DNA of 38,499 bases, taken from positions 1 through 38,499 of the forward strand of contig CAOKMT010000019.1 of assembly GCA_948469885.1 (NCBI GenBank), written 5' to 3'. Each line of letters starts with the position of its first letter. The stretch's first letter is position 1. The notes below the pieces were generated by a model that saw only the letters and a list, made by a program, of their open reading frames with translations, had not been told where the DNA came from and did not search any database. The DNA is from an uncultured Sporosarcina sp. Lineage in GTDB: Bacteria; Bacillota; Bacilli; Bacillales_A; Planococcaceae. Shown in pieces: positions 491 through 29,836 of the stretch. The position numbers and the translations under genes were made by a program.

Positions 491-510
491 CTATTGTAGA
501 GTGCACCAAC

Positions 511-925
511 GTTGGACTAACACGGCGGTTTGTTGGACAACCCACTCTTTTCATTGGACTAACACGGCGAGCTGTTGGAATATCCGCTCTCTACGTTGGA
601 CTACAATACGACGTTGGATTAACACGGCGGTTCGTTGGACTATCCACTCTTTCCATTGGACTAACACGTCGAGTCGTTGGACTATCCGCTCTCTTCGTTG
701 GACTACAAAACGGCGTTGGATTAACCCGGCGGTTCGTTGGACAACACACTCTTTCCATTGGACTAACACGTCGTGCTGTTGGAATATCCGCTCCCTACGT
801 TGGACTACATAACGACGTTGGATTAACCCGGCGATTCGTTGGACAACCCACTCTTTCCATTGGACTAACACGGCGAGCTGTTGGGCTATCCGCTCTCTAC
901 GTTGGACTACAAAACCAATGTTGTT
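511..925 (+). repeat. GTTGG array 1: four 102-bp units built from ~21-bp sub-repeats
   Basis: GTTGG or ATTGG cores begin at 511, 532, 553, 574, 595, 613, 634, 655, 676, 697, 715, 736, 757, 778, 799, 817, 838, 859, 880 and 901. The spacing pattern 21-21-21-21-18 repeats four times, giving a 102-bp higher-order unit (511, 613, 715, 817). Typical cores are GTTGGACTAACACGG, GTTGGACAACCCAC, GTTGGAATATCCGC and GTTGGACTACAAAAC. Both strands are open for long stretches only because the period is mostly a multiple of three; no start, RBS or protein-like composition supports coding. The array fills the space between the YhgE stop codon and the terminator at 452-490. Confidence 0.9.
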
Positions 926-932
926 AACCCCA

Positions 933-3900
933 TTACAACACGATCTCACTCTCCCGTGCTTTCTCAATAAATTTGTCGCTCGATTTATTGATGCGCTCTT
1001 TCAAGCGGATGCCGATGAAGAGGAAAATCGCGATATAAGCGAGTAAACAAGCGATATGTTTCCACACGACGGGCCAAATGACGCCGCCGACCGCTTCGCG
1101 CAATAATTGCAAAGCGTGGGTGAATGGCAAGAATGCATGGATCGTCTGGAAGAAAGATGGCGTCATTTGAATTGGGAATGTCCCGCCCGATGCGCCCAAT
1201 TGCATGACAAGCAAAATGATGCCGAGCACTTTCCCCGTATTGCCGAATACGGAGACGAGTGTGTAGACGATCGTCACGAAAGTCGTGCTGACCAAAAAGC
1301 TGAAAAGCACAAACAAAAACTTATGGGCGACGAATACTTTCAATAAAAACAGATCTCCCATCGTGACGATGAATGCCTGCATCAAGCCGATCATCAAAAA
1401 TGTCAAGAGACGGCCAAAGTAGGCTTCGTAACTTTTGTACTGATGTTTGTTCGGAATGTCCACGATGAGCGACGACACAAGAATGAGTGCGCCGACCCAT
1501 AATGACATCGTTGTGAAAAACGGCGACATGGCCGATCCGTAGTTCGGCATTGGGAATAATTCATGTTCCGCCAAGACGATCGGATCTGCGAAAAACTCAC
1601 TTTCCGCCGTCGGGTCATTTTTCATCAAGTCGATGAGCTGGTCTAAGTCGCCTTTCTCTTCCAAGCGACGAATCAGACTGGCGATCTCTTTCACTTTATC
1701 TTTTACTTCCGGAAAAACCTCATGCGCTGTATTCAAGCCTTCTTTACCTTTGCCAACACCCGCTTCTGCTTTTTCCAATAATTCATAGATGCGCGGGAAG
1801 TAGGCACTCGCTTTCGCCAGCATCCGGTTTCCTTCTTTAATGGCATTATTCGCTTTTGCCGAGGCACTTTCGTATTTCGGCATTAAGTCATCGTCAATAA
1901 AATGTAGAAGGTCACTAATCTTCTTATCCATCTCTATGGACTTCTGTTTAATGTTTTGGATGGCGTCCCCGACATTTCCTTTACTAACTCGGGCACGCCC
2001 GACCGCTTCCACAATATTTTCATGAAATTTTTGCAAGTCTTGTTGCGTTGCCGCAAGTCGATCTAGGCTTTCATCGAATAGCCCTTCTTCAAACCGTTTT
2101 TGGAGCCGTTCATTCACATCGATGAGCGATTGGATTGTATCTTGGCCACTTGCTATCCGATCGGCTAAGTTTTGAAATAACTGGATCGCTTTTTCAGGTT
2201 CTTTCACACTGTCGAGAATGTTCCCGCTCAGGTCGGAAATGCCGTCCGCCGTCTTTTTCAAATCAGCCAACTGATCGCGGATGCTTGTTTCCATTTGTTC
2301 CAACTTGGCAACCGCCTCATTGAAAGCCCCAGCAATATTCGTTTCGGAAAATTGAATGAGCTGCCCTAACCGTTCATCGACGGCTTCGAGTTGCTGTTTA
2401 ACCGCTTCTCCCACCGTTCCACTTATTTCCTCGCCGCGTTCAATAGCACCAAGTGTTGTCGACAGTAAGTTTTCTGCGCTTTCCAATTTCTCTTGTACAC
2501 TCGTCAATGCCGCAATCGGTTTTTCCAATAAACGACCGCCCGTTATTTCATTGACACGGTTGAAAACTCGTAAAACGGTATTCACTCTGTCCAAATTCTC
2601 TTCGATGACAGGGAGAACCGCTTCAATATTTTCTTTGTATTCGGTGACGTCAATCGGGCCACCGGTTTCTTGCCACTTGGACAGTTGATCGATCAATGCG
2701 GCATTCTTTTTTTACATGTCGATAAACGTGTCTTTTACTTTCGGTGCATGTTCGCGAATCCGCTTGATCTCATCTTGGATCGCAGGAATGACCGACGTTT
2801 CATACGTGTCGCTCATTTGGTCAAGGCGTGCCACCAAATCTTTCGTCGCCTCATCCACTTTTTCGGCGATGTCAACGCCGATATTATCTCCTTTTTGAAG
2901 CGCGTCGATCGTTTGTTGGATACTTTGTTCCAACTCGTTCAGTTTTTTAGACTCACTTTCCAATGAAGTGATGATTTCTTGTACTTTGCTTTGCTCGGCT
3001 AACTTCTCATTCGTCTCTTCAAGCATTTCTGCCAAATTGCCCCACGCTTCCGAGCCATCTGTCAGTTTGCCGGCGCCTTGTTCGACCTGGTCAAGTAGCT
3101 TATCGATATCGGCTCCTTTTTCCGTCATACGATCGGCGACCGTCGGGATTTGCTGGATACCTTTTTGGGCAAGCCGCAAATCTTGTTTCACGATCGGCAC
3201 GTATTGCCGGACGGCCCGGTCTCCTTCTGTCAGCATGTCGGAGATTTTATCACTGAGTGCTTCAGCTTGCTCACTGATGTCTTCCGCTTTCGCCATTCCG
3301 TCATTTGCCTTATCAATCGCTTCTTCGACGCGCACCAAGTCTTTGTCTGCTGACCCTAAAATCTGTTCGATTTCAGGCAACTCCCCTTCCAGACGGAAAA
3401 CGGAGTCTTTCATATTTTCGATCGACATCCGGTTTAATTCCAATTCGAGGCCGACTTCGTTGAAGACATTGAAAATTGCTTCGTTCGCCACTTTCACGAA
3501 ACCACTTTGAATATTTTCAACAATGGCAGATGCCCCGGCTCCTGTCACTTTCGGTGCAATGGCGTTTATCTTTTCATTAATGTAGTAGTCAAGAACAGGT
3601 TTTTCCGGATTGTCTGTAATTACACTCGTCAACTTCTCCGAGAAATCTTTCGGTATGATGACAGATGCATAATAGTCCCCATGTTCGACGCCTTGCATCG
3701 CTTCCTCTTCGTCAACGAACTGCCAACCGAGCTTGTCATTGTCAAGGAGGGAGAGCACAATTTCATCGCCGACCTTCACCGATTTCCCTTCGACTTCCGC
3801 CCCCTCGTCCATATTGGCGACAGCGACTTTCACACCCGAGGTATTCGCATACGGATCCCATGATGGAATGATGTTGAACCAAGCATATAAAGAAGGTAAG

Positions 3901-6925: not shown

Positions 6926-7528
6926 CCCAATCCTCTCCTTCGCTTTTTGGTCACCTTTCAAAAACAATAACTACTGTTCAAGTGCAAGGGCATCTTCGAC
7001 CTGAATATCTTTCAACTTCCTTAATTCAAGAACATGAATTTCCGCATGGGATGAAAAAATAGTACCGTCTTCCGGCTCCATCAATTGGAATTTGCTATGA
7101 TAATGCTGTTTCGGTAAAAAATTGAAATTGGCAATGACAATTTGAACCGCTTTCTTTAGGTCCACGTATGGTCGGCTTACTTCTTCTTGGTTCGCGTACA
7201 TTTTGGCCCAGTAGACAAGCATTCGTTCGTTGAATGCTTCATGTCCTTGGACTTGCATTTCAATATTGATTTGCTCACATTCCTCTGTCCGTACCCGAAT
7301 GTCCATTGCAGATGTCTTGTCTATCCGATGAAGCGGTTCGAGATGCGGATCCGTCAATTCGACGGAAGTCAAGGTATCGTCCAAAATTGAATTCAAGAAA
7401 TGGAGTAATAGACGTCGATTCCTCCAGTCGCCAAAAAATGCCCTGAACACAAAATCATTCCGAAGATCCAGCAATTCCATATCATATGCGTCTTTCCGTT
7501 CCAGCATAAGCGAAACCAACGTATGCAC
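6656..7528 (-). pseudogene. rpn: Rpn-family PD-(D/E)XK nuclease gene with an in-frame TAG
   Basis: The frame holds 291 codons, the usual length of Rpn (recombination-promoting nuclease/putative transposase) proteins, with one internal stop: TAG at 6971-6973. The start is GTG at 7528 with AAAGGA upstream. The N-terminal piece (7528-6971, 185 aa) has LRNDFVFRAFFGD, the active-site-like SAMDIRV and NIEMQVQ strands (D...E-x-Q of the PD-(D/E)XK fold) and the family's HVLEL..L. The stop falls in LEQ-stop-LLFLK, where family members usually carry a tryptophan (WLLFL), so TGG to TAG is the simplest explanation. The rest continues in frame as the C-terminal region. Rpn proteins act as DNA endonucleases, some in phage defence. 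The split may be a lesion or a naturally separated toxin and inhibitor. Confidence 0.8.
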
Positions 7529-24005: not shown

Positions 24006-24018
24006 TATGGAGGACACT

Positions 24019-25527
24019 ATGGGGAGTTTGAAAAAGGCGGCGCTGTGGACGACGGCGCTGGCGTTGTTGCTGAAGGTTTCAGGGTTTATTCGTGAGTCGA
24101 TTGTTGCGAAAGAGTTTGGTGCGTCCGCTGAGACCGATGCGTATTTCCTCGCTTTCGGATTCATCACGCTCGTCGTAGCGATGATTTCGACGGGTTTCAA
24201 TAATGTGTTTTTACCGATGTACATAAAGTCGCGGAAGGAAAAGGCGAATGCGAGCGATGACAATGCGAATGCGCTACTGAATTGGACGATGTTGCTGTTC
24301 ATCGTTGTGAGCGTGCTCGGATGGTTTTTCGCCAGTGCATTCGTGCCGTTCATTTATGGAAATATGAGTCCGGAAACCGAAGTGCTGGCAATACGGATGA
24401 CGCAAATCTTCTTTGCATTCATGACGATGATCGCGTTGAGCGGTTTGCTCGATTCTTATTTGCAGTCGCGGCGGATTTTCGTCCCTTCGCAATTGGCGAA
24501 GTTGTTGGCGACATTGATGGCGGCGCTTTTTGCGTTGTTTTCCAGCGATATATGGGGCATTTATTCGCTCGTGTACGGGTTTGTTGCCGGGACGGTACTC
24601 GGGGTTTTGATCCAAATCGTGGCGCTTGGCCGTTCGGATTATAAGTGGCGGCCGGTGTTCGGGATGGAGCGCGAGTTTCGGGTAGCATTTTTAGCGTTAA
24701 TCGTCCCTTCTTTGCTAAATTCGGTCGTCGGGCAAGTGAATTTGTTCGTCAACCGCTTTTTCGCTTCGGGAACGGGCGATGCGTCGGTGACGTATTTGAA
24801 TAACTCATCATTGATCATCAGTATTCCGAACGCGATTTACGCAACGACTTTGGCAGCGATCATTTTCACGCTGATGAGCGAACAAACTTCGGACATGGCG
24901 AAATTCCGCGATACGGTGTTCCGCGGGATGGAAATTTCTTTGGTGACGTTATTGCCGGTGGCGGTCGGTTTGCTCGTTGTCGGCGATGCGGTTGTCGCTT
25001 TCATTTATGAACGTGGTATGTTTACTGCTTTAGATACGGCGAATACGCACTTGGCATTGTTGTTGTATTTGCCGATCATCGTGTTCCAAGGGATGCAGCT
25101 CATTTTGTCGCGATCGATGTACGCACGCGGCAAAACCGCGGTCGTCTTCCGCATCAGTGTGACGACAATCGGTGTGAATATTTTGCTGAACTGGTTGCTC
25201 GTCGACAAGTATGGGTACCCGGCGCTCGCGATCGCTGCTTCTTCCGTGAGCATCTACTATTTTGTCGTGTCGATGGTCGTCGTTTACCGGGATCTCGGGA
25301 CGGCCGAATTGAAGCGTTTTGGACGGATGAGTTTGCGTGTCGTCGTCCCGGCGGCTGTGATGGGCCTTGCCGTATGGGGCGCAAAAGCCGGACTCGGCGC
25401 GGCGAACTGGACAGCGATTTTGCAATTGGCTGTGCTGGTCCCAATCGGCGCCGTCGTCTATGTGGTGATGGTGCGGGTGTTTTACCGTGAAGGATTTAAT
25501 CGATTGGTTGGGATGGTTAAGCGTTAA
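24019..25527 (+). CDS. murJ: MurJ/MviN-family lipid flippase
   Basis: The product is 502 residues from the ATG at 24019, chosen because GGAGG lies 5 nt upstream. An ATG four codons earlier (24007) has no RBS. About 14 membrane segments are visible. The N-terminus carries the family pattern SGFIRESIVAKEFGASAETDAYFLAF, and NRFFASG...VTYLNNSSLI matches the central 'd..las.l..G.vs.l.ya.rl' region. The family flips lipid-linked wall precursors (lipid II or related) outward. In this locus the substrate might be the undecaprenyl-linked SCWP unit or lipid II. It is the last gene of the csaB operon and is followed by a strong terminator. Confidence 0.85.
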   Translation: MGSLKKAALWTTALALLLKVSGFIRESIVAKEFGASAETDAYFLAFGFITLVVAMISTGFNNVFLPMYIKSRKEKANASDDNANALLNWTMLLFIVVSVLGWFFASAFVPFIYGNMSPETEVLAIRMTQIFFAFMTMIALSGLLDSYLQSRRIFVPSQLAKLLATLMAALFALFSSDIWGIYSLVYGFVAGTVLGVLIQIVALGRSDYKWRPVFGMEREFRVAFLALIVPSLLNSVVGQVNLFVNRFFASGTGDASVTYLNNSSLIISIPNAIYATTLAAIIFTLMSEQTSDMAKFRDTVFRGMEISLVTLLPVAVGLLVVGDAVVAFIYERGMFTALDTANTHLALLLYLPIIVFQGMQLILSRSMYARGKTAVVFRISVTTIGVNILLNWLLVDKYGYPALAIAASSVSIYYFVVSMVVVYRDLGTAELKRFGRMSLRVVVPAAVMGLAVWGAKAGLGAANWTAILQLAVLVPIGAVVYVVMVRVFYREGFNRLVGMVKR

Positions 25528-25547
25528 AAGTGAGAGATTGATTGGCG

Positions 25548-25583
25548 AACCGCTTCGGGTGATGAACCTGGGGCGGTTTTTTT
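25548..25583 (+). terminator. Terminator of murJ; left copy of an inverted pair
   Basis: AACCGC..CGGGT pairs with ACCTG..GCGGTT and is followed by seven T. Its sequence CCGCTTCGGG (25550-25559) and GGGGCGGTTTTTTTGATGGG (25570-25589) recurs exactly in inverse orientation at 27749-27784. Confidence 0.85.
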
Positions 25584-25610
25584 GATGGGTGTGTGGGTGG
25601 GCACGGGGAC

Positions 25611-25975
25611 GTTGGACTATCGTGCGGAGAGGTTGGAATACTTCCACGGCGTTGGACTATCCCGGGGCGGCGTTGGAGGTAGACAACAAGACGTTGCACT
25701 ATCGCCCAGGGAGGTTGGAATACTTCCGCGGCGTTGCACTATCCCGGGGCCGCGTTGGAGGTAGACAACAAGACGTTGCACTATCGCCCAGGTAGGTTGG
25801 AATATTTCCGCGGGGTTGCACTATTCCGTGGCGGCGTTGGAGGTAGACAACAAGATGTTGCACTATCGCCCAGGGAGGTTGGAGTATTTCCGCGGCGTTG
25901 CACTATTCCGTGGCGGCGTTGGAGGTAGACAACCAGACATTGGACTATCGCATGGCAGGGTTGGATCATCCAATA
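25611..25975 (+). repeat. GTTGG array 2: 82-bp units, four full copies plus a partial
   Basis: Units begin at 25611, 25693, 25775, 25857 and 25939, exactly 82 bp apart. Each contains four cores about 19-21 bp apart: GTTGCACTATCGCCC, GTTGGAATACTTCC, GTTGCACTATTCC and GTTGGAGGTAGACAAC. Units differ by a few substitutions and no indels. The array starts about 20 bp after the murJ terminator and ends before a 50-bp palindrome. Open frames through it lack an RBS. Confidence 0.92.
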
Positions 25976-25992
25976 GGAGTAAGTAGTAAGGA

Positions 25993-26042
25993 AAACCATT
26001 AAAGTAACCACTTCAAAATTGAAGTGGTTACTTTAATGGTTT
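25993..26042. terminator. 50-bp near-perfect palindrome overlapping the NERD gene end
   Basis: Two arms of 24 bp (AAACCATTAAAGTAACCACT plus TCAA and its exact complement) flank a 2-bp centre. The right arm includes the last codons and stop of the NERD gene (MKPLK-stop). As RNA it would form a very stable hairpin on either strand. No long T-run follows, so it may serve as a terminator, an RNA end protector or a mobile-element relic. Confidence 0.7.
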
Positions 26043-27079
26043 CATATCAGCTGGAGACGTTCGGTAATCCCACATATAATGCGTTGTCGTCGAACGTCCG
26101 ATTTGTTTTAGGGGTAGCTTTTTCAATATATAGTTTGCGGCGTATTTATCTTTCAACTGCAAAAACTCACGGCATTCTTTGTTGGAAATTGTGTCTTTGA
26201 TTAGCATGAACCAATCTTTTATCCCCTGCTCATATGCTTGTTTCACGTCTCGTATACAAGTCCGGCAACTCCAAACTTTGTAGTTTTTTCGTTCTAGAAG
26301 TCTATCACAGTCGTCGCAGATCAATCCCCTTCTTATTTGTTTGGGATTGATGCCGTTCTTTTCACACAACGGATAGGGATCATATCGTTTTTCACCTTTC
26401 CGTAACTTATCTGCAAGTGAATGCATTTGCTTATCTGTCAAAATTGGACCTGTTTTATCTTGCATCCGAAAATAGTACGGGAGATGTTTTGCGTACATAA
26501 TTTGGATATCAGCTGGCGCGTTCCTCACAGATACTTTTGAATTCGCCATGACAACTAATGAATCTGTCACTGATGGAAATCCGTTTCGATGAAGCCACAT
26601 ATTGAGCCCCGTTCGATTATTGTTCAATTGCATAACGGGACAATCGATAACAATCTGACCACGCCCTTCATCGGTTCGTTCGAAATGGGGGGATTCGGAA
26701 TATATGTTAACGTTCCGGCTATATTTTTAATTTCAAGTAGAATAATAGATGAGCGTGAAAGAATTAATGTGTCAATTTGAATCAGGAAGTTTTCAGCGAC
26801 GGGGAGCTGCACGTCAGTTAAAACGATCACTTTTTGGGGGAATATCGTTGATTCTAGATACTTATCAACTTTTACTTCGCCTGCGTAGCCCGCTTGAACG
26901 CGGTACAATTTGTCCTCGATTTCCTTGTATTTCGGACTGTTGGGGTGCAGTCGTGCAAGTAGTCGAGGTAAAGATTTAAGTTGTTCGAGTTTCCTACGAT
27001 AAATCCGGATATTTTTCACCCACTTTATCGAATATTTTGTCATCAAAGATAGAATAACAACTAACAAGAAAGAATTCAA
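26028..27079 (-). pseudogene. NERD-domain protein with a frameshift in a C-run
   Basis: Two overlapping frames belong to one protein of about 350 residues. The 5' frame (from about 27079, TTG, poor RBS) gives a membrane-like N-terminus, IYRRKLEQLKSLPRLLARLH, AGYAGEVKVDKYL and the NERD core DTLILSRSSIILLEIKNIAG. At the run of six C (26687-26692 on the plus strand as G) the frame breaks. Adding one C restores PNPPHFERTDEGRGQIVIDCPVMQLNNN and joins the 3' frame, which has a C..C/C..C pattern (LICDDC...WSCRTC) and TISNKECREFL, typical of the C-terminal part of Bacillus NERD proteins. NERD is a predicted nuclease-related domain. A homopolymer lesion could be phase variation, decay or sequencing error. 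Confidence 0.8.
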
Positions 27080-27133
27080 TAGAATCAGGAAACTTTAGAT
27101 TTTAGGCCGCTTCGTTAGTCATCCACTCAATTC

Positions 27134-27736
27134 GTTGAACCAACAACACTACGTTGGAGGACTTGAGCACGAGGTTGGAATACTTCTAGGCGCGGTTGGA
27201 TTCGTTGGACTAACAACGGGACGTTGGAGGACTTGTTGACGGGGTTGGACTACTACTAAGCGCGGTTGGAATATACGCGCGGTTCGTTGGACTAACAACA
27301 CCCCGTTGGAGAACTTGAGCACGGGGTTGGAATACTACTAAGCGCGGTTGGAATACACGCTAGATTCGTTGGACTAACAACGGGACGTTGGAGAACTTGA
27401 GCACGGAGTTGGACTACTTCTAGGCGCGGTTGGAGGATACGCGCGATTCGTTGGACTAACAACGGGACGTTGGAGAACTTGTTGACGGGGTTGGACTACT
27501 ACTTGGCGCGGTTGGAATACACGCTAGATTCGTTGGACTAACAACACCACGTTGGAGGACTTGATGACGGGGTTGGACTATTACTAGGCGCGGTTGGAGT
27601 ATACACGCGATTCGTTGGTCCAACAACACCACGTTGGAGGACTTGAGCACGGGGTTAGACTACTACTAAGCGCGGTTGGAGTATACGCTAGATTCGTTGG
27701 ACCAACAACACCACGTTAGCGTACTTGATCACGAGG
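27134..27736 (+). repeat. GTTGG array 3: eight units, 82-bp period
   Basis: Units begin at 27134, 27204, 27286, 27368, 27450, 27532, 27614 and 27696. All steps are 82 bp except the first (70 bp, missing one 12-bp piece). Each holds four cores: GTTGGACTAACAAC, GTTGGAGGACTTGAG, GTTGGACTACTACTAAG and GTTGGAATATACGCG. Unit length equals that of array 2 although the sequences between cores differ. The array lies between the NERD gene start and the glucosaminidase terminator. Confidence 0.92.
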
Positions 27737-27748
27737 TTGGACTGCCCG

Positions 27749-27784
27749 CCCCATCAAAAAAACCGCCCCGGGAATCCCGAAGCG
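27749..27784 (-). terminator. Terminator of the SLH glucosaminidase; right copy of an inverted pair
   Basis: On the minus strand CCGCTTCGGG and CCCGGGGCGG form the stem, followed by seven T and GATGGG. The 20-bp tail and 10-bp stem arm are identical to the murJ terminator at 25550-25589, in opposite orientation. Confidence 0.85.
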
Positions 27785-27793
27785 GCTTGTTTG

Positions 27794-29836
27794 TTATTGT
27801 GCTGTTATTTTTTTAACGAGTTGAAGGTTGCCGTCTACTTCGCGGATCCAGCCGAACTCGTGCTTGGCGTCGTCTGATAATACTTTGAACCATGTGAAGC
27901 CGTCAGACCCTTTCACTTCGTCGACGATGACGAGTGGGTAGCCGAATGCGTCATTGACGCCTAGCGATTTGGCATTGTAGGAAAATACTTTTGCCTCGCT
28001 TGTGCTCGGACCACGACGGACGTGAATCTGACCATTGTATCCTGTCATGGCGAGTTGATATTTTCCAATATCTTTACCACCAAGTTGGTTGTCGGCACGC
28101 CACATATGGCTTGCAATCTTGGATCCCCAGTTCGGATCGGATGCGTAGTGGACGTTCATGCCGGTCGTTTTATTGCCCGCCGCTGCGCCTTTTGCGTATG
28201 TGCCGTTCGGTGTGTATCTTTCGTTCACATAACGGTTTACGAAAGCGTCGATGCTCGCTTCGAGTTTTGCGTATTTCTCCCCTGCTTCAGGGCTGCTGTC
28301 ATACACTTGAATGCCGAACAAGTTGTTTTTCTGTTGAGCATTCGCACTCATCCCTGCATTACTTTCATGAATGGCGGCGCTTAAAATGAATAGCGCGTTG
28401 ACGTTATGCTCTTCTTCCATTTTTTTAATATAGCTTCCGAGCCCGATCAGTTTGGATGTTTTCGGAGCGGTCGGATAATTGACTGAGATTTCTTGCAAAC
28501 GGTGTGCAATATAGCTATCTAGCTCTTTTGCTGTGTAATTCGACTTGGAACGGACAGAAAGGAATTGGAAATATGGATAATGCGTTCCTACATGCTGTCC
28601 TTGTAAGTTTGAATAGTGTACACCGTCATGGCTGTAATATTTCACACCTTGCTTCATCCAGCTAGGTGCTGCACCAATCGGATACGCCCCAAGATTTCGG
28701 GAACCGTTCGCATGGTTGACTGTGTAATGGTTCAATGTTCCATATTGCGACACCATGTAGTACTCCCGATTCGTAATCAAACCGTACGGGATGAAATCGA
28801 CTTCGCTATGCTTGGCATAACCGATCGTTCCGCCCGCTTGTACTTTGACGAATTTCTCATTGGCATCGATATATCGAAGTTCACGGCCGTATTCCGTGTA
28901 TGTCGCTTGTGTCTTGAATTCTGGGTCCGCGTAAATGATTGTCGTCGCCGCTACTCGCTTACCGTCTTTCGAAACAGTATTGTTTCCATAAGCGAGTCCG
29001 CTCTTAATACGAATCAATTCGTTTCCTTTGTATAAGCCGACGATGGATGATGAACTGCTGTTATATGCAGTCGCCGCTTTTAAATAATCCGTATACTTCT
29101 CGCCTGTTTTTTCCAACTTACCGTTTTTGATTGCTGCCATTTGGAAAGCATTCGGATCGGCCGGTGGTGGTGTCGGAACTGGTGGCGTTGTTGGGCCATT
29201 CTCTTCCTCATATGCTTTTTTCGCTTTTAAGAAACGTGCAATCGCACCAGCAGATTGTTCGCGCGTTGTGTCTGCTTTCGGTTCGAAACGACGAGTTTCC
29301 TCGAAATGTACGTTGTCCAAATACTTATAGTTGAGGCCCGTGAAAGCTGCCCGGATGTAAGTGGACGACCCGAATGCATTGCGGTCCGCAATATCTACGC
29401 CTGTCACGTCCAGCGGCATGCCGCTATATTCAAGGACAGCTTGCATCGTGAGCGCCATCTGTTCCCGCGTAATGTAATCATTCGGTTTGAAATTGTTGTC
29501 CGTGTAGCCGGACATGATGCCTGCGTGGCTCACTGCTAAAATAGAATCTTTCAATTTGACATTGGAACCGACGTCCTTGAAAGAACCTTTTCCTTTCGGC
29601 AATGTCAAAGCACGTTCAATGAATGCAGCAAATTGTCCGCGCGTCACTTTTTCCGTCGGTTTGAAACTGCCATCCGGATACCCGTGCAAGACTCCTTCCT
29701 TCACCATTTCACGCATGTCCGCTTCAAACTCGCGTCCCTTTAAATCATCTGCGTATGCAATGTTGCTTGTCCAAAAAAGCATCAAGGCAACACTGGCAAT
29801 TAAAATACTTGATGTCCATCGTTTAAGCTTCGTCAT
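27794..29836 (-). CDS. SLH-anchored N-acetylglucosaminidase with SH3-like end
   Basis: The product is 680 residues; the ATG has GGAGGGTG just upstream. Signal peptide 1-29 (NIAYA). Three SLH domains cover roughly residues 35-210 (VTRGQFAAFIERAL, ITREQMALTMQAVL, TTREQSAGAIARFL). A proline-rich linker (TTPPVPTPPPADP) follows near residue 220. The glucosaminidase (lysozyme subfamily 2) domain covers about 450-600 with ALFILSAAIHESNAGMS, whose glutamate is the likely catalytic acid, and NNLFGIQVYDSSP. An SH3-type module ends the chain (IHVRRGPSTSEAKVF ... WIREVDG). It should cleave glycan strands of peptidoglycan at the surface while bound to SCWP. It is first in reading order from the right of a block of SLH enzymes, each with its own terminator. 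Confidence 0.9.
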   Translation of the reverse strand: MTKLKRWTSSILIASVALMLFWTSNIAYADDLKGREFEADMREMVKEGVLHGYPDGSFKPTEKVTRGQFAAFIERALTLPKGKGSFKDVGSNVKLKDSILAVSHAGIMSGYTDNNFKPNDYITREQMALTMQAVLEYSGMPLDVTGVDIADRNAFGSSTYIRAAFTGLNYKYLDNVHFEETRRFEPKADTTREQSAGAIARFLKAKKAYEEENGPTTPPVPTPPPADPNAFQMAAIKNGKLEKTGEKYTDYLKAATAYNSSSSSIVGLYKGNELIRIKSGLAYGNNTVSKDGKRVAATTIIYADPEFKTQATYTEYGRELRYIDANEKFVKVQAGGTIGYAKHSEVDFIPYGLITNREYYMVSQYGTLNHYTVNHANGSRNLGAYPIGAAPSWMKQGVKYYSHDGVHYSNLQGQHVGTHYPYFQFLSVRSKSNYTAKELDSYIAHRLQEISVNYPTAPKTSKLIGLGSYIKKMEEEHNVNALFILSAAIHESNAGMSANAQQKNNLFGIQVYDSSPEAGEKYAKLEASIDAFVNRYVNERYTPNGTYAKGAAAGNKTTGMNVHYASDPNWGSKIASHMWRADNQLGGKDIGKYQLAMTGYNGQIHVRRGPSTSEAKVFSYNAKSLGVNDAFGYPLVIVDEVKGSDGFTWFKVLSDDAKHEFGWIREVDGNLQLVKKITAQ

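Follow-up and report, generated by a model that had tools for sequence, protein, structure and literature searches.

Why does a gene for a NERD-domain protein (PF08378, predicted nuclease-related) lie between two tandem arrays of short direct repeats, and does this layout have counterparts elsewhere? The question is raised by a stretch of 38,499 nucleotides from an uncultured Sporosarcina sp. (contig CAOKMT010000019.1 of assembly GCA_948469885.1), hereafter the window, in which an array, the NERD gene and a second array follow one another between murJ and a gene encoding S-layer homology (SLH) and glucosaminidase domains. An initial annotation, made from the sequence alone, had suggested that the whole is a discrete module of about 2.2 kb closed by inverted identical terminators. 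Herein, we report that one subfamily of NERD genes recurs with arrays of a common core on its flanks, and that the arrays vary together with the NERD sequence. L, G and C numbers designate loci, genomes and contigs.

Array flanks of one NERD subfamily

NERD genes were scanned in 41 genomes, and an ab initio detector of arrays (6-mers recurring at 17-24 bp at least four times, with one missing unit tolerated) was run on 30 loci, one per genome. Arrays were present at 11 of the 30, nine of them among the ten lower-scoring loci (L219-L228), and our first reading, that the NERD gene is incidental to the arrays, was dropped after this clustering. The ten loci encode a distinct NERD type, type 2, which contains a zinc ribbon and a further domain at the C-terminus; four higher-scoring NERD proteins have another C-terminus. 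Since the split between types had been noticed after the arrays were seen, a hidden Markov model (HMM) of type 2 was built from eight of the ten proteins and independent loci were tested. The search covered open reading frames (ORFs) of at least 150 amino acids (aa) in all fetched loci. At E ≤1e-20 it returned seven further genes in murJ-neighbourhood loci (L115, L118, L122, L125, L129, L131 and L134), as well as REN13, HYO08, L176, L223, L225 and two pieces in the window; the weaker hits (7e-18 and worse) belong to the other type, type 1.

A gene was scored as framed when an array of the same core on the same strand lay no more than 400 bp away. The window itself was excluded, and the background comprised ORFs of at least 200 aa, dropped if they were less than 450 bp from a stretch end or overlapped an array by more than 25%. 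Type-2 NERD genes were framed on both sides in 10/20 cases and on some side in 16/20, as compared with 0/20 and 1/20 for type-1 genes (14 from the same genus and 6 from other genomes) and with 6/1484 and 109/1484 for background genes (Fisher test, 9e-17). murJ accounts for three of the six framed background genes, each in a locus of its own, and the gene that follows murJ for the other three. Among the seven loci independent of the HMM, both sides were framed in 4/7 (p 4e-8) and some side in 6/7 (p 1e-6); when one of two sister Domibacillus loci was left out, the counts became 3/6 (p 3e-6) and 5/6 (p 1e-5). Among the coordinates listed there are at least three more NERD genes framed on both sides by one core on one strand, at G022 22739 (ACTTCCC), G003 C4:103013 (TTATGCG) and G004 C21:17128 (TTGAGCG). 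The check proposed in the initial annotation, a search for other NERD genes with such flanks, is thus positive for one NERD subfamily, and these counts support the array-NERD-array layout as a recurring unit.

The cores of these arrays go with the NERD protein that they accompany. Paralogs of one genome stand beside different cores, TTTATGCG and ACTTCCC in G022, and GTTGGA and AGTTAT in the genome of the window. The murJ loci contain nine NERD genes. Flanking and separate arrays occur together at five of these genes, with cores that agree in 5/5 (L094, L103, L115, L118 and L122); three have flanking arrays only (L125, L131 and L134), and one has separate arrays only (L129). Across 17 genes, NERD identity was correlated with array similarity (r 0.39, 0/20000 permutations), and the correlation persisted without L131 (r 0.33, 47/20000) and without HYO08 as well (r 0.33, 118/20000). 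The two flanks match each other as direct repeats in 9/17 type-2 loci, up to 95% over 80 bp, some of the matches being short (29-40 bp), and in one of the 11 type-1 loci examined out of 20. Recombination between such direct-repeat flanks would leave a solo array. The flanks also match in inverted orientation at L223 (79% over 76 bp) and, over a shorter length, at L125.

By sequence, the type-2 proteins consist of a nuclease domain, a zinc ribbon and a C-terminal domain. All ten relatives (10/10) score above the curated cut-off of PF08378, and E46, D80, K95 and four cysteines are invariant in 8/8, so that residues of catalytic type are conserved. An AlphaFold2 model (mean predicted local distance difference test score, pLDDT, 90) gave structure matches to a nuclease fold over residues 3-198, and the chains that match at about residues 265-322 are ones that we take to be winged-helix proteins; the latter reading comes from the whole-protein model, and a model of the C-terminus alone failed. 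The type-2 protein is accordingly predicted to be a PD-(D/E)XK-type nuclease with a zinc ribbon and a C-terminal winged helix. Type 1, as we read four sequences, appears to end in a different, topoisomerase-like zinc finger. The Y1 tyrosine transposase domain (PF01797) was found in 0/10 type-2 proteins at E up to 1.

The window locus and its counterparts

The layout in the window, whose features are given in Table 1, is real. Tandem Repeats Finder reports a period of 82 at 25608-25951 for array 1 (4.2 copies, 91% match) and at 27199-27743 for array 2 (6.6 copies, 85% match), with unlike consensus units. The ab initio detector recovers both arrays and a third at 511-907, and finds 0 arrays in 10 Markov controls of the window. 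Two GTTGG arrays of equal 82-bp unit and unlike sequence, as described in the initial annotation, are confirmed.

Table 1. Coordinates of the arrays, genes and terminator-like elements in the window.
Feature	Position	Strand	Evidence
Third GTTGGA array, without NERD, 102-bp higher-order unit, at 3' end of ORF 933-2696(-)	509..915	+	
murJ, left neighbour; its 3' end is followed by array 1	24007..25527	+	PF03023, 225 bits
murJ terminator, one arm of inverted pair	25547..25589	+	
Array 1, GTTGGA/GTTGCA core, 21+19+21+21 bp monomers, 82-bp higher-order unit	25608..25965	+	
50-bp perfect palindrome at NERD 3' end, terminator-like on both strands	25993..26042	.	
Second piece of broken NERD gene: zinc ribbon and C-terminal domain	26028..26633	-	homology to REN13 NERD, type-2 HMM
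First piece of broken NERD gene: N-terminus and nuclease domain up to E-x-K motif	26624..27079	-	PF08378, E 4.8e-10
Array 2, GTTGGA core, strand as array 1, spacers differ, 82-bp higher-order unit	27134..27743	+	
Glucosaminidase-gene terminator, other arm of inverted pair	27749..27788	-	
SLH and glucosaminidase gene, right neighbour	27794..29836	-	PF00395, PF01832

Four monomers make up the 82-bp unit; three measure 21 bp and the fourth 19 bp, and each starts with GTTGGA or a one-base variant. Array 2 mostly runs 19+21+21+21 bp with some irregular spots, array 1 does likewise with GTTGCA variants, and the unit of the third array has four monomers of 21 bp and one of 18. In a lag test, the observed value was reached by 3/200 shuffles for array 1 and by 0/200 for array 2, the murJ side being the weaker. 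Arrays 1 and 2 overlap no ORF of at least 90 aa, and the third overlaps an ORF of 138 aa; a coding repeat was ruled out because 82 bp is not divisible by three.

The NERD gene between the arrays stands as annotated in that its nuclease domain passes the cut-off of PF08378 (40.4 bits against 22.1, on the ORF 26624-27079(-)), but its frame is broken into two ORFs, which had gone unmentioned. The domain match covers profile positions 1-61 of 111 only and the remainder is in another frame, which leaves the gene disrupted in this assembly. The first piece shows 59% identity over 108 aa to the HYO08 NERD protein (type-2 HMM, E 6.1e-23); the second matches the intact protein of REN13 at 53% identity over 198 aa (type-2 HMM, E 2.7e-36). 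The break falls within 26624-26720, a stretch with a run of identical bases, and may reflect either an assembly or sequencing error or a pseudogene.

Matched inverted terminators at both ends and a 50-bp palindrome marking the gene end, both noted in the initial annotation, are present. The terminators have a 23-nt arm in common at 96% identity, and the only genome matches of the tail CGGGGCGGTTTTTTT within one mismatch (2/2) are these two sites; given that the tail is confined to them, they are a real pair, and a house terminator used throughout the genome was ruled out. The palindrome has two 24-nt arms, 100% complementary and 2 nt apart, and overlaps the NERD stop at 26028. As module ends, however, the terminators failed, since REN13 carries the unit between two unlike terminators. 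This rules out a module bounded by terminators for this unit, and conserved inverted ends at every copy, as in a DNA transposon, were likewise not found in view of the REN13 copy. What remains of the discrete module is the recurrence of the array-NERD-array unit itself around type-2 genes, REN13 and HYO08 included.

In HYO08 the order is murJ, array, NERD, array, glucosaminidase, as in the window. Its arrays have the core GGGNAACTC, found in an array upstream of HYO08 murJ as well, and the NERD gene is interrupted by an IS200/IS605 pair of a Y1 transposase and a TnpB-type protein (L094 12107-13625). REN13 has the order of the window with GTTGGA arrays, except that NERD is separated from the second array by two additional ORFs. 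These two ORFs (L103 12931-14341) are alike and by eye recall PD-(D/E)XK transposase kin such as that at 6971-7528 in the window (PF12784); for the longer one, Pfam gives a weak unrelated match only. The REN13 record, NZ_JADHDX010000010.1, is titled Arthrobacter beigongshangensis, but its murJ falls among Sporosarcina, and the label looks wrong. The murJ-glucosaminidase interval of BP05 measures 133 bp and has neither NERD nor a detected array, with one GTTGGACACTCC monomer kept; that of a Sporosarcina metagenome-assembled genome also has neither. S. thermotolerans, S. highlanderae and S. luteola carry TTATGC arrays at the murJ locus and no type-2 NERD match in the locus examined. Because the NERD carriers are scattered over the murJ tree, the short interval of BP05 is compatible with gain and loss alike.

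Arrays were found in 13/44 murJ 3' gaps (one partial locus of 45 was left out) versus 27/335 other gaps of the same loci, a comparison in which gap length is a confounder. The 13 arrays carry nine top words, some of them mutually related, and 12/13 lie in loci without a type-2 HMM match (L095, one of these, stops within the array). The initial annotation had held that arrays standing at random sites without the NERD gene would speak against the module, and this is partly the case: arrays without NERD are common, as shown by these 12 and by nine GTTGGA arrays that lie outside the window in the same genome, on contigs with no NERD match. We read these NERD-less arrays as solo arrays.

Geometry and distribution of the array cores

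The cores are set at a nearly constant distance. In loci of five genomes, GTTGGA cores are 21 bp apart in 207 cases and 19 bp in 54, a few are 18 or 20 bp apart and none 22-23 bp; the genome of the window also has a few cores closer together. The higher-order units of 82, 102 and 103 bp give a mean of 20.4-20.6 bp per monomer, which is two turns of about 10.2-10.3 bp, and the other core families have mean spacings of 20.0-21.0 in the named-locus arrays listed. TTATGC arrays of G022 reverse, pointing apart, at short palindromic junctions (L269, L270, L272, L275 and L276). At these divergent reversals the cores are 13 bp apart in 6/9 (two of the six identical in sequence) and 14 in one; a fixed 13-bp dyad would be what a dimer needs.

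The core is kept and the spacers are not. The host groups with Sporosarcina; its murJ and the murJ of Sporosarcina sp. HYO08 share 85% identity. At a spacing of 19-23 bp, GTTGGA pairs number 106 in the host genome versus 2 for the reversed pattern, and the stretches examined hold 12 detector-level GTTGGA arrays, three inside the window and nine on contigs without a NERD match. BLAST of array 1 against this genome returned array 1 alone, and the window arrays gave one weak 70-bp match against 16 other loci; this near-absence of matches indicates that the core is common and the spacers are not. In 118 monomers of the host, in which GTTGGA was fixed by construction, an A three bases on is kept in 91%, and the other columns reach 28-64%. 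The kept motif is longer in G002, G026, G009 and REN13, roughly TTnGTTGGACACTT.

Array abundance differs among genomes. The detector called 18 arrays in 400 kb of G022, 14 in 400 kb of G008, 3 in 520 kb of the genome of the window, 6 in 400 kb of six other same-genus genomes and 2 in 360 kb of ten other-family genomes, both of the latter not of the 20-21 bp type; some of these calls fall within ORFs, several in G008 and one in G022. The HYO08 array and the 21-bp period of P. ruber, which the lag test shows, escape the detector, and lengths and counts in drafts are lower bounds, as contigs end in or beside arrays (G000:C5 start, G000:C22 end, G000:C49 start, G002:C39 and C45 ends, G026:C24 end). 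Among non-coding repeats in stretches sampled at even steps, the gaps in G022 are only 20-21, 40-42 and 61-63 bp; in G008, 25/35 are at 20-21 or 40-42 bp and 10 at 51-52 bp. The 51-52 bp repeats of G008 (L159-L178), beside the 20-21 bp ones, resemble the 52-nt class of Bacillus. At least 20 TTGAGCG pairs were counted in 14/37 same-genus genomes (that of the window included; reversed control up to 15) and at least 20 TTATGCG pairs in 6/37, each core being common to several species. TTGAGCG pairs are absent from the GTTGGA-rich genomes G000, G002, G009 and G026, in which TTATGCG pairs number at most one, so that the genus is split by core family. A bias of TTATGCG strand with replication in G022 was rejected; a few arrays fitted it at first, and a longer listing was mixed. 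In a listing of 100 of the 107 TTATGCG pairs of G022:C1, density appears higher at 3.08-3.66 Mb and 0-0.72 Mb than between these two segments.

The position of arrays relative to genes was surveyed with ORFs of at least 120 aa taken as genes; ORFs overlapping arrays by more than 25% were dropped, and seven arrays at stretch ends and seven in ORFs were set apart. With murJ loci included, arrays occupied 35/178 convergent, 29/712 tandem and 9/179 divergent gaps. The preference for convergent gaps was gone without the murJ loci (convergent 9/135, divergent 8/136, tandem 12/488). In tandem gaps, 24/29 arrays were closer to the 3' end of the upstream gene.

Readings of the pair and known systems

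Collectively, we consider it probable that the type-2 NERD gene and its arrays form a gene-plus-own-repeats pair resembling the repetitive extragenic palindromic (REP) elements and their REP-associated tyrosine transposases (RAYTs), in which NERD would bind the arrays and perhaps spread them. As a sequence-specific DNA-binding nuclease, NERD would have the array cores as its cognate sites. The two-turn spacing would set the cores on one face of the helix, and neighbouring NERD molecules could then occupy an array co-operatively, among others the arrays adjoining their own gene; solo arrays with the same core elsewhere in the genome would be further sites. Solo arrays were probably seeded and amplified through breakage and repair provoked by the nuclease inside arrays, and sites that keep the core would persist while spacers drift. 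The arrays themselves are best read as binding platforms. A bolder version, which we advance only tentatively, is that type-2 NERD and phased arrays constitute a new self-propagating chromosomal system: the winged helix would read one core, NERD would polymerise on arrays and would drive their amplification and their seeding at gene ends, and a change of specificity in a paralog would let a new core recolonise the genome.

The alternative that survives best, although we think it rather unlikely, is that the host keeps the arrays as binding platforms at gene ends, for nucleoid packing or insulation, bound by NERD or another protein; NERD would have no part in spreading and would be flanked through self-regulation. 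The kept core with free spacers, the two-turn spacing, the closeness of tandem-gap arrays to the upstream 3' end and the arrays in orthologous murJ gaps of many species all agree with it. It sits poorly with the patchy presence of arrays inside one genus, with convergent gaps not clearly above divergent ones outside murJ loci, with the replacement of cores between species at one site and with the broken NERD copy in the window.

It is less probable still that there is no functional link, NERD genes being passengers in permissive intergenic places, or having landed at some time within an array that now surrounds them. Some genomes are rich in arrays, as is G022, where one call lies in a gene, and the direct-repeat flanks are as expected after insertion into an array. 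Against this, none of the type-1 genes was framed on both sides though most are from the same genus, other genes were very rarely framed by one core, paralogs in one genome have different cores, and the arrays track the relationship of the NERD proteins.

We regard it as quite improbable that the arrays are RNA sources and NERD an enzyme acting on or with repeat transcripts. The 52-nt Bacillus repeats are reported as transcribed in the parts available of PMC8161180 and PMC8625621, and the predicted folding of a 300-base segment of array 2 is slightly better than that of shuffled sequences for both strands (z -1.5 and -1.7). An RNA element is disfavoured by this weak folding together with the absence of any Rfam match for the arrays; array 1 moreover lies between terminator-like sites, and a two-turn spacing has no obvious meaning for single-stranded RNA. 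Helical geometry and free spacers make a DNA-binding protein preferable to RNA. Hardly any credence is left for a mobile module bounded by the inverted terminators and inserted between murJ and the glucosaminidase gene: the pair is unique in the genome, BP05 has its short interval and L223 and L125 their inverted flank matches, but the REN13 unit at the same place has unlike terminators, HYO08 has no such pair in the stretches read, and a plasmid or phage origin found no support, with no array match in plasmids and no NERD relatives in plasmids and phages (one query) or viral contigs (two queries).

Among described repeats, the closest are the tandem repeats of 20-21 nt and 52 nt in Bacillus, which have a constant length and a variable, species-specific sequence (Subirana & Messeguer 2021, PMC8161180); the main text of that study notes the two helical turns and proposes a polymerising protein or RNA roles. 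The arrays of the window are members of the 20-21-nt class: they are non-coding, of constant length (monomers of 21 and 19 bp, and 18 in the third array) and species-specific in sequence with a short kept signal, and there are several families per genome. That main text does not mention NERD, nuclease, transposase, flanking, adjacent genes or sequences, Sporosarcina, or a convergent, orthologous or intergenic setting, and no partner gene for these repeats is reported in the open-access literature searched, including the available text of PMC8161180 and PMC6749651. As far as these searches go, the NERD partner, the higher-order units of 82, 102 and 103 bp with short monomers, and a single site with different cores across species are new relative to the available text of PMC8161180. 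Such repeats of Bacilli have been described in print as enigmatic, and a protein partner for them had been no more than a guess; type-2 NERD is a first candidate partner, a named protein for a binding test, and if the self-propagating reading is true, it would account for these enigmatic satellites.

Within the NERD family (PF08378), of which the window piece and its relatives pass the cut-off, the array-flanked subfamily adds a zinc ribbon and a winged-helix-like C-terminal domain. In plasmid iterons, direct repeats about two turns apart are bound by one protein on one face; the arrays here, in contrast, are chromosomal and dispersed, and no replication initiator gene was noticed at the locus, none having been searched for.

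The REP/REPIN-RAYT systems, as set out in the available text of PMC3116915, share with the present one a gene beside its own extragenic repeat family, a genome holding several flavours that each adjoin a gene of their own, and REP spread in trans has been proposed for them; flanking of the gene by its own repeat family was likewise found for most type-2 NERD genes. The components differ: in those systems a tyrosine transposase, RAYT, accompanies palindromic hairpins, the REPs, whereas here a PD-(D/E)XK-type protein is predicted beside non-palindromic, helically phased direct repeats, and no inverted repeats of at least 12 bases were found within the window arrays, which fold weakly. If the pairing is true, it would represent a second, unrelated solution to the arrangement of a gene plus dispersed repeats, and would provide a natural series of matched nuclease and target pairs from which rules of DNA recognition could be drawn.

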